Source of the DNA: an uncultured Lachnospiraceae bacterium
Lineage (GTDB): Bacteria; Bacillota; Clostridia; Lachnospirales; Lachnospiraceae
Assembly: GCA_949840805.1 (NCBI GenBank)
Contig: CATKXR010000004.1
Coordinates: 94,325-158,324 of the forward strand
Reading direction: 5' to 3'
Length of the DNA stretch: 64,000 nt
The translations under genes and the position numbers were made by a program. The notes below the pieces were generated by a model. That model was not told the origin of the DNA and made no database searches. It saw only the letters and a program-made list of their open reading frames with translations. Below, piece by piece: positions 48,731 through 54,012 of this stretch (positions within the stretch are counted from its first letter, which is position 1; each line of letters opens with the position of its first letter).

Positions 48731-48797
48731 AGGATTGAAATTGCATACCTTGTTGTGCAGTACTATTCATAGGTCAATATTGTTAAGTTGAAGATTT

Positions 48798-49165
48798 TTC
48801 CGAAAGGTCCGCAGGAGAAGAGGGACAGAACGTTTTCAGACACGTTCTCACTCCGTTTTTCACGTAGCGGTACTAAGGCTGTAAAGGACACAGCCTAAGT
48901 GCCGACGTGAAAAGAGGGTCTTCAAACGTTCTGTCCCTCTTCTCCTGCTACGTTACTGGCACTACTTAACGGAAGACGTTGCCCCCATAAAACGGCCGAT
49001 AAAGTAGCCTGGTCTGTTACCCGTACCCCGGGAAACCCTCGAAGAACGTCGGCGCTTAATGAGCCGGGATGGTTTTCCCGGCGAATTTAGCGTCCGCTAC
49101 GTTCTTCACGGAGCGAGAGCGCGTTTTCCGGGGTACGGGTAACAGACCAGGCGGACCTTTCGGAA
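48798..49165. repeat. Nested multi-arm palindromic element, 368 bp, no ORF
   Basis: The outer stem is TTCCGAAAGGTCCGC (48798-48812) with its perfect complement at 49151-49165. Inside are two arms. Arm 1 (48811-48948) is closed by a perfect 25-bp stem, then a 9-bp stem (TTTTCACGT 48857-48865 with 48905-48913), then a 7-bp apical stem (AGGCTGT 48876-48882 with 48890-48896). Arm 2 (49007-49152) has the same plan: 25 bp perfect (49007-49031 with 49128-49152), 9 bp (GAAGAACGT 49041-49049 with 49099-49107) and an apical GCCGGGA hairpin (49063-49069 with 49076-49082). No credible coding frame or target-site duplication was seen. It may be a structured RNA or a non-autonomous mobile repeat. Confidence 0.85.
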
Positions 49166-49202
49166 TAACTGTAAATAACGTCAAACCCCACACGATAAAG
49201 TA

Positions 49203-49237
49203 TAAAAAATCCCGGAAGATAATTCCCGGGATTTTTA
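49203..49237. terminator. Bidirectional terminator after the palindromic element
   Basis: ATCCCGG and CCGGGAT pair around a 10-nt loop, with A-run before and T-run after. It serves malQ (or the element) and the convergent gene at 49263. Confidence 0.88.
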
Positions 49238-49262
49238 AAAGAATCTTATCACTCTTTGATAC

Positions 49263-50087
49263 TTATTCTATTACAATGGATGGCCCTCCGCTGTCAGAAG
49301 AAGGAGCCGTCTCTTCTGCTTCCGTACTGCCGTCCGGTGCCGGTGCTTCCGTGCCGGAACCGCCTTCTGCCTGTTCGATATCCCCTTCTTCGGAATTGAC
49401 CTCCAGCACATCTAAGTTTCCTTCTTTGTGGGTGGTAAAGGTCTTCTGGGCCTCGTTGCCGGCCTTGTCCTGGATATGGACATGGAGACTGTTCAGATCC
49501 ATCTCAAAGGTTATGCTGTAGGCAGTGGTGTTGTCGATGGTGTCTTCAATCCGTTCTACCGATAAAGGCGTGCGCTGAATCCCCTGGGAATCTGTGGCAT
49601 AAATGGCTTCGGAGTTGACCAGGGACTGGCTGTCTGTGACACGTAATGTCAGAATCCCGTCATCTAAAGTGGCATTCTCAAAAGAAGGGGGAATATCATC
49701 CAAAATATTTACATGATGAAAAACCGTGGCGGACATGCCGTTTAAGTTTACCACCGTAACTTCCAAAACGCCATTTCTTGTTATGGGAACCGTGTAGGTC
49801 CGCCGCCGGCCTTTGACCGGTTCCAATTCTTCGCCGTCCATGTTGAAGGAGACGGATTTTGTGGGAAACCAGGATTCAATGGACATGGTGGCATTTGTCG
49901 ACAGATAGTCGTTGGTATCCTCCACATCAAGGTTTATCTTAGGGGTGGAGGCGACACAATAAAAGAGGATGCCGTTAAAAATGATAAAGGGCAATATATA
50001 AAAGAGAAGAAGCTCCGGCAGGCCTCCGGAGGACTTTTGCGTGTGCTTTTTGCCGGAACGGTAGGGGGATTTCTGATAGTATTCCAT
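49263..50087 (-). CDS. Membrane-anchored protein with Ig-like ectodomain
   Basis: A 274-residue protein not recognised by name. A short basic cytoplasmic start (SPYRSGKKHTQK) is followed by one transmembrane helix (about 23-46), an ectodomain with two beta-sandwich-like parts (SVSFNMDGEEL to VTVVNLNG; ILTLRVTDSQ to HVHIQDKAGNEA, the last typical of bacterial Ig-like folds), and a disordered Glu/Ser/Pro tail. The start at 50087 has AAGGAG about 10 nt upstream. Function unknown; surface location is the main inference. Confidence 0.65.
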   Translation of the reverse strand: MEYYQKSPYRSGKKHTQKSSGGLPELLLFYILPFIIFNGILFYCVASTPKINLDVEDTNDYLSTNATMSIESWFPTKSVSFNMDGEELEPVKGRRRTYTVPITRNGVLEVTVVNLNGMSATVFHHVNILDDIPPSFENATLDDGILTLRVTDSQSLVNSEAIYATDSQGIQRTPLSVERIEDTIDNTTAYSITFEMDLNSLHVHIQDKAGNEAQKTFTTHKEGNLDVLEVNSEEGDIEQAEGGSGTEAPAPDGSTEAEETAPSSDSGGPSIVIE

Positions 50088-53614: not shown

Positions 53615-54012
53615 AGGGGGTTTTACTGGAAAAAAATACAAGAGGTATCTGCCGGCGTTTTGGTAATACTATTTTTCGGATATCTGGATGAGCACATTTT
53701 CAGCTTACGCGGTATATATTATAATGTGAACAGAAAAAATTTACACGGCATCGGCCTTTGAACCTATTGGAGCCGATTGTCAGACGGCAGCCCGCATTCA
53801 GCTGGTGCTTCAGATAGATCAGGGAAACCTGGACGGTATGCGTGGACTTGCAAGCACGGATGCCGTCTACATAGCAGGTGCGGGTTCATAAGCTGTTTGG
53901 TTCTGGTTCACATGCAATTGGGAAACCGTGCCGTCTGCACGGTTTCCCAATGTCTCATCATGCGAAATCAGGCTGCCCTGAAGGGGATAGCTTTTATATC
54001 CGGATATCATCA
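53615..54012. other. 398-bp gap between sipL and hpf
   Basis: Apart from the terminator hairpin at 53917-53951 I find no supported gene. A fragmentary frame after sipL (about 53620-53760) looks vaguely coding (hydrophobic then basic residues) but has no good start and ends at a stop, so it may be a gene remnant. A TATAAT at 53720-53725 lacks a clear -35. Confidence 0.5.
53917..53951. terminator. Perfect hairpin between sipL and hpf
   Basis: ATTGGGAAACCGTGC (53917-53931) pairs perfectly with GCACGGTTTCCCAAT (53937-53951) around a 5-nt loop. No long T-run follows, so termination is probable rather than certain. Confidence 0.65.

Follow-up and report, generated by a model that had tools for sequence, protein, structure and literature searches.

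We found that the long palindrome behind malQ in the window, the whole 64-kb stretch of DNA that was analysed, is the centre of a 459-bp repeat dispersed through its own genome. This repeat is probably a MITE moved in trans, carrying two inverted hairpin units with a conserved, predicted RNA-like core. Comparison with relatives makes it most likely that such MITEs carry a structured core that is under selection.

Fold, borders and copies of the element behind malQ

A preliminary description had drawn an outer stem enclosing two arms of three tiers each, and every stem was found in its place, with Watson-Crick pairs throughout. The outer stem comprises 15 bp. Arm 1 holds stems at 48811-48835/48924-48948 (25 bp), 48857-48865/48905-48913 (9 bp) and 48876-48882/48890-48896 (7 bp), and arm 2 holds stems at 49007-49031/49128-49152 (25 bp), 49041-49049/49099-49107 (9 bp) and 49063-49069/49076-49082 (7 bp). 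The GC ends of both arm stems are overlapped by the outer stem, as had been proposed. Folding went beyond chance: the MFE of 48790-49173 was -228.2 kcal/mol compared to -122.3 (sd 5.4) in 100 dinucleotide shuffles, none of which was as low (z = -19.7). Furthermore, the whole window contained 56 inverted 12-mer pairs with members no more than 400 bp apart, and 32 of these fell in 48745-49203, while three shuffled windows had 3, 0 and 0 such pairs.

When the arms were compared using model R1, which was made from units that it then finds, matches on opposite strands revealed that arms 1 and 2 are inverted copies of one hairpin unit (Table 1). The complementarity reported between their internal loops (10 of 11 and 6 of 6) was reproduced; it arises because the arms are inverted homologues, and hence it does not speak for a tertiary contact. 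The extent first given, 48798-49165, held as the centre of a longer element. Likewise, the term ORF-free applies to frames lying wholly within the element, none of which reaches 80 aa, and does not cover a 150-codon frame (49069-49521) that begins inside it and extends antisense into the frame of the neighbouring gene. A terminator-like hairpin, AAAAAATCCCGGAAGATAATTCCCGGGATTTTT, was seen by eye at 49205-49236, directly downstream of the element and before the next gene. Across the window, Rfam gave a single match that reached the gathering score, RF02938 (COG2827 RNA), at 53801-53873 (+) with 68.4 bits.

Table 1. Features of the 459-bp element, in window coordinates
Feature	Positions	Strand	Basis
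Whole dispersed element, 459 bp	48745..49203		borders by alignment with 21 near-complete same-genome copies
Left terminal inverted repeat, family form ATACCTTgTCGTGC	48745..48758	+	copy alignment; genome end-pattern count
Right terminal inverted repeat	49190..49203	-	copy alignment; 10 of 14 bases match left (by eye)
Outer stem, 5' side	48798..48812		pairs with 49151-49165
Outer stem, 3' side	49151..49165		pairs with 48798-48812
Arm 1, one complete hairpin unit	48811..48948	-	R1 match 48828-48930, - strand, 109.5 bits
Arm 2, second hairpin unit, opposite orientation	49007..49152	+	R1 match 49024-49136, + strand, 77.5 bits
GNRA tetraloop (GAGA on - strand) of P3, arm 1	48846..48849	-	sequence
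GNRA tetraloop (GAGA) of P3, arm 2	49115..49118	+	sequence
Inter-arm linker with third, weaker hairpin (48947-48960/48995-49008)	48947..49008		sequence and copy alignment

The own genome (5.0 Mb, 152 contigs) was then searched for dispersed copies. The window element gave at least 129 matching pieces with 40 of 85 first-look candidates scored, so the repeat is not unique, and model R1 gave at least 85 matches, two of them opposite-strand echoes, with 150 of 613 candidates scored. We aligned the window element with 21 near-complete copies drawn from 20 of 39 further regions retrieved. The resulting 22 rows showed that the repeat is bounded by ATACCTTgTCGTGC...GCACGAcAAGGTAT and that its copies vary by paired changes within stems. 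With one mismatch tolerated, the end pattern occurred 80 times in the genome compared to 15 times for the reversed control. The window element has several features of MITEs: it is short, has no transposase gene of its own, carries terminal inverted repeats and occurs in many dispersed copies. No target duplication was definable for the window family in the 18 of 22 aligned rows used. A transposase gene with matching ends was not found in the own genome, where one candidate stretch was examined and the fragmented assembly makes this a weak test. On contig C42, a stretch enclosed by inverted ends was considered as an autonomous element and rejected, as it holds agr-like genes.

Several other repeats were encountered among the copies. 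Pairs of the window family's end pattern on one strand, spaced 72 bp apart, appear to form a small repeat of their own (for example G000:C7:86825-86910, C42:25093-25178 and C42:29014-29099 in the own genome); on C42 the agr-like genes lie between two such pairs in facing orientation. In 3 of the 22 aligned rows (L027, L028 and L029) the apex of arm 1 contains another palindromic repeat, about 153 bp long and with GGAACTGTCTCGAAATCA at its ends, and short traces of the end of that repeat are present in L018 and L030. A lone unit, L138 (G000:C61:15524-15628), is nested in a far longer palindrome with arms of about 120 bases. Twelve contigs begin or end within copies (C8, C18, C35, C46, C48, C51, C60, C62, C69, C84, C85 and C134), indicating that the repeat probably breaks the assembly and may be more abundant than counted.

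We looked for the malQ region in 15 congeners and obtained 12 loci, none of which (0 of 12) carries a hairpin unit at malQ. The flank-to-flank gap was about 450 bp shorter than that of the window in G022 and G010, with other shortfalls in several congeners; in G023 it was about 50 bp longer, yet without the unit. The congener flanks were 66-81% identical, a level at which the exact junction is not readable. With dispersed copies, terminal inverted repeats and the absence of the unit from all the congener loci, the initial suggestion of a non-autonomous mobile repeat was supported.

The hairpin unit, its core and its stem

Single-arm relatives were folded at 24 loci and 27 units were aligned; six near-duplicates among the 27 extracted units were omitted, giving alignment A1 with 21 units. 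The units follow a common plan in one orientation, in which a long stem, P1, is joined by a helix, P2, and a small P3 hairpin with a tetraloop. P2 has the form ACGT-CGGYACT-T-AGGC..GCCT-T-AGTACCG-CT-ACGT, its pairing interrupted by a two-base bulge and a T.T mismatch. When the 21 units were aligned plainly with MAFFT, RNAalifold recovered P1, P2 and P3 unaided, and two-sided changes were found at 24 of the 27 RNAalifold pairs. For the specified structure we counted 179 two-sided cells compared to 64.4 (sd 6.9) after shuffling, a value reached in 0 of 500 shuffles, and sliding the structure by one base lowered the paired cells from 84% to 37-42%. The stems therefore covary among homologues, as expected of a structured RNA family.

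A GNRA loop, present in seven sequence versions, capped P3 in 116 of 118 model-aligned units, with 100 chosen loci as the input preceding this count. The alignment used for it (A2) was fitted to R1, so loci selected by the P2 pattern alone were counted separately, and the GNRA hairpin was in place in 76 of these 80 loci compared to 7.7% after shuffling. Judged from the alignments, each unit consists of a conserved core enclosed by a long stem that is specific to the lineage or locus; within the core a bulged helix stands beside a small GNRA-capped hairpin. The predicted fold of this core is a three-way RNA junction bearing a GNRA tetraloop, and the conservation of the loop favours RNA. DNA hairpins with GNNA-type loops can also be stable, so GNRA is compatible with DNA as well. 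The structured RNA suggested at the outset thus stands as a fold, on the basis of compensatory changes and GNRA loops, and not as a transcript or a function.

To place the unit, we used draft assemblies representing one genome per species. Single-arm relatives matched in 16 of 61 genomes searched. Under strict filters, model R1 matched at least 122 of the 299 genomes sampled from the window's family, nearly one genome per genus, and gave no match in 177. A sample of the order yielded at least 14 matching genomes among 196; 13 belong to the window's family, and the only match outside it, G501, was weak (E 1e-4). When named genomes were scanned with the pattern, and 80 of at least 111 stretches were considered, most records were labelled Lachnospiraceae or Butyrivibrio and some only Clostridiales, Firmicutes, bacterium, Eubacteriaceae or Clostridiaceae. 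The named records point to Lachnospiraceae as the home of the unit. The window element was not found in phages and plasmids, nor the exact core pattern in viral contigs. In one locus, L164 (G157:C21:12430-12906), three units of the same orientation stand in tandem with a 187-bp period.

The P1 arms behaved differently from the core. By eye they appear unrelated between genera, and among 11 units taken from G253 the arms matched in 0 of 55 locus pairs (E 0.01) while the core matched in 44. In 115 of the 118 matches (three lay too close to the locus end) the aligned arms had a median length of 46 bases (7 to 77) and 88% complementarity. G253 and G345 share 11 orthologous unit sites in ten locus pairs that are 82-95% alike; L152, L153, L158 and L343 of G253 had no partner among the G345 loci compared. 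Across 649 pairs in these orthologues, 26 had changed on both sides and 26 on one side and were still paired, and 40 were broken. With 40 broken among 92 changed pairs, the change is concerted yet not strictly constrained. Unit sites diverged by 9.9% at paired and 11.0% at unpaired positions, compared to 7.2% in the flanks.

We also looked at the mismatches in the stems. Under symmetric scoring P1 contained 144 G.T, 128 A.C and 417 other mismatches (G.T versus A.C, p 0.36), and P2 of the model-aligned units contained 41 G.T and 32 A.C (p 0.35). An excess of G.T in P1 (66 versus 42, p 0.03) seen in the model-fitted alignment was set aside, as that alignment favours G.T. The lack of strand preference in P1 is expected if pairing is maintained at the DNA level, and templated correction of palindromes is a possible mechanism for this. 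The orientation of units to flanking ORFs was classified for 78 of 109 units (18 lay at an edge and 13 had no clear orientation by motif), disregarding frames of less than 900 bases that overlapped a unit. We counted << 32, >> 27, >< 12 and <> 7, and the two same-direction counts indicate no orientation bias toward genes. A DNA cruciform, another early suggestion, may form, being compatible with both the absence of strand preference in stem mismatches and the absence of orientation bias. No linked protein emerged, the largest cluster of neighbouring ORFs covering 5 of 80 named loci (80 of at least 111 stretches).

These data bear on an explanation in which a host-level functional core, DNA or RNA, spread long ago and is kept by local selection, with MITEs as occasional vehicles. 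Such a core would fit the 11 unit sites kept at 10 orthologous G253/G345 pairs with their 26 two-sided paired changes, and the contrast in G253 between a core matching 44 of 55 locus pairs and arms matching none. However, no unit was matched in 177 of 299 family genomes under strict filters, 40 of the 92 changed pairs were broken, unit sites diverged slightly more than their flanks, and there was no common neighbour gene (5 of 80 loci at most, from 80 of at least 111 stretches). We consider this explanation unlikely.

Probable movement of the element and what may drive it

Two sites of G253 were compared with G345. L152, next to a rapZ-like gene (named by eye), is an insertion of 183 bp in G253 and is absent from G345 with no trace and no target duplication; in seven other genomes the flank gap was 159-216 bp shorter than in G253, so these are also without the insertion. 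Searching with L152 revealed that its core alone matches other copies and its arms do not. Between the ilvN- and ilvC-like genes (named by eye) that flank L158, 13 bases stand in G345 compared to 177 in G253, and these 13 bases start a short (5-bp) inverted repeat, a possible decayed copy.

The copies of G121 align from GTAAC to GTTAC as a single 216-217-bp hairpin, and their end pattern occurred 181 times in that genome compared to 1 in the control. A closed end pair was present at 8 of the 15 places examined, comprising the core-bearing L446 and seven elements that were core-less by model R1. Perfect 8-bp target duplications flanked five of the seven core-less elements (L439, L440, L443, L444 and L449); L441 had a duplication of 6/8 and L442 had inverted flanks. 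Among five core-bearing elements with both ends, L404 had a duplication of 8/8 and L405 of 7/8 (8-mers by eye), and L400, L403 and L446 had no clear duplication. By eye, core-less elements of 110 bp resemble internal deletions of the 216-bp form. Since the core-less siblings have common ends and 8-bp duplications, the ends, not the core, suffice for movement in G121. The GTAAC..TCAGC ends and the 8-bp duplication are as expected for an IS66/ISBst12-driven MITE. The ends in Butyrivibrio RUI181 differ once more, and next to the unit of L205 there is a palindrome that lacks the core and has related arms.

A second explanation is a giant REP/BIME-like element, in which a Y1 (TnpA_REP/RAYT) transposase would read a GTAG foot and hairpin as ssDNA, move the unit and keep the core conserved. 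Units are intergenic and multicopy, and ssDNA transposition would leave no target duplication, as at the 183-bp L152 insertion. In unit orientation both window arms have a GTAG foot, and they are inverted as REPs are in BIMEs in the excerpted account of these elements (PMC8266576). However, the Y1 transposase (PF01797) was absent from the unit-rich genomes G084 (96% complete) and G121 (88%) and present in G009 and G082, neither of which gave an R1 match under strict filters. The GTAG foot is absent in many genera, the units measure 130-220 nt compared to the 20-50 nt given for REPs in that excerpt (PMC8266576), and the G121 siblings move core-less with 8-bp duplications. We regard this explanation as quite improbable, and a RAYT partner was rejected as a requirement because G084 and G121 are rich in units and have no Y1 gene.

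Alternatively, the core itself may be mobile and insert into the centres of existing palindromes, which become its stems. This would account for unrelated arms around one core and for core-less palindromes with related arms, and a different palindromic repeat does occupy the arm-1 apex of L027-L029. The joint absence of the L152 arms and core from G345 argues against it, as does the resemblance of the G121 110-bp core-less elements to internal deletions; at L158, the 5-bp inverted repeat that stands alone in G345 could be either a nascent hairpin or the relic of one. We hold it to be very doubtful. A palindrome born of chance or assembly, which a genome in 152 contigs with 12 of them starting or ending inside copies might suggest, is refuted by the covariation (0 of 500 shuffles), by the spread (at least 122 of 299 genomes) and by the recurrence of homologous units, compensatory changes included, across many genomes assembled independently; the sequence counts contradict the unique segment, free of compensatory change and insertion polymorphism, that had been named as its mark.

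For the favoured MITE moved in trans, we propose that a transposase supplied from elsewhere would act on the terminal inverted repeats of the 459-bp element, and that the window copy would have moved as the G121 MITEs did, with its own, different ends. P1 would stay paired through fast concerted change, by templated palindrome correction, selection or both. We infer that the core acts, if at all, in read-through RNA; it would be kept because it is functional when folded in read-through transcripts, where it would probably serve in processing or insulation and so render insertions between genes tolerable. Having one unit per strand, the composite would offer a correctly oriented core to transcription from either direction. 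Counted against an RNA role are the missing orientation bias, the missing G.T excess in P1 and P2 and the 40 broken among 92 changed pairs. Counted against mobility are the lack of a duplication in the window family and in L152, the lack of a clear one in three of the five core-bearing G121 copies, the absence of a transposase gene with matching ends from the one candidate stretch examined and the longer malQ gap of G023.

More tentatively, one core could be the cargo of unrelated MITEs throughout the family, a mobile RNA cassette with ends and stems that are swapped or rewritten, of which the window composite would be a strand-symmetric form; this is a possible reading rather than a probable one. 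If true, it would invert the usual rule for small transposons, in which the ends are conserved and the middle drifts, since here the middle is conserved and the ends are variable. The structured motif occurs in about two fifths of the genomes sampled from this major family of gut bacteria (at least 122 of 299), with up to dozens of copies per genome, and scattered intergenic hairpins thereby become one testable family. They offer a natural system for learning how near-perfect palindromes persist and what a mobile RNA-like fold does to its neighbours.

Comparison with known systems

The preliminary description knew no named element of this form, and our searches agreed. None of 4227 Rfam families matched the element's region of the window, and seven unit loci searched at E up to 5 gave nothing beyond noise of 18-23 bits. 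No published description was found in a literature search judged mostly from titles and abstract openings. The unit is structured, covarying and GNRA-capped like many Rfam RNAs, and matches no family among them.

With REP, BIME and TnpA_REP systems, as far as the excerpt describes them, the element shares intergenic palindromes, a GTAG foot (on the window arms) and inverted pairs (PMC8266576). Unlike REPs, the present units are several times longer, have a conserved apex and a variable stem, and do not need Y1; the combination expected of REP/BIME, a GTAG foot at a 20-50-nt palindrome with Y1 in the genome, is not that of the unit.

A likeness to an insertion sequence was seen at the ends of the G121 MITEs. 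In the part of the report covering ISDge4 (IS66 family, ISBst12 group), its end GTAACTGCTCAGCA agrees with the G121 MITE end GTAACAGTTCAGCC at 11 of 14 bases by eye, and both have an 8-base direct repeat (PMC12898284). This likeness is limited to the G121 ends, and the ATACC ends of the window element differ.

The pneumococcal repeats BOX, RUP and SPRITE are similarly dispersed, highly structured, likely parasitic and thought likely to affect co-transcribed genes, according to the portion of the source that treats them (PMC3049150). They are described there as almost wholly missing from other streptococci (PMC3049150), whereas the core found here occurs in at least 122 of the genomes sampled, close to one genome for each genus.

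The closest parallel to the whole element lies in bacterial MITEs such as MITEAba12, which in the excerpted description are also short and ORF-less with terminal inverted repeats and many copies, and G121 adds target duplications to the likeness (PMC6382973). MITEAba12 is about 113 bp long with weak predicted secondary structure (PMC6382973), whereas the middle of the present element is a strongly conserved fold and the ends differ between genera.
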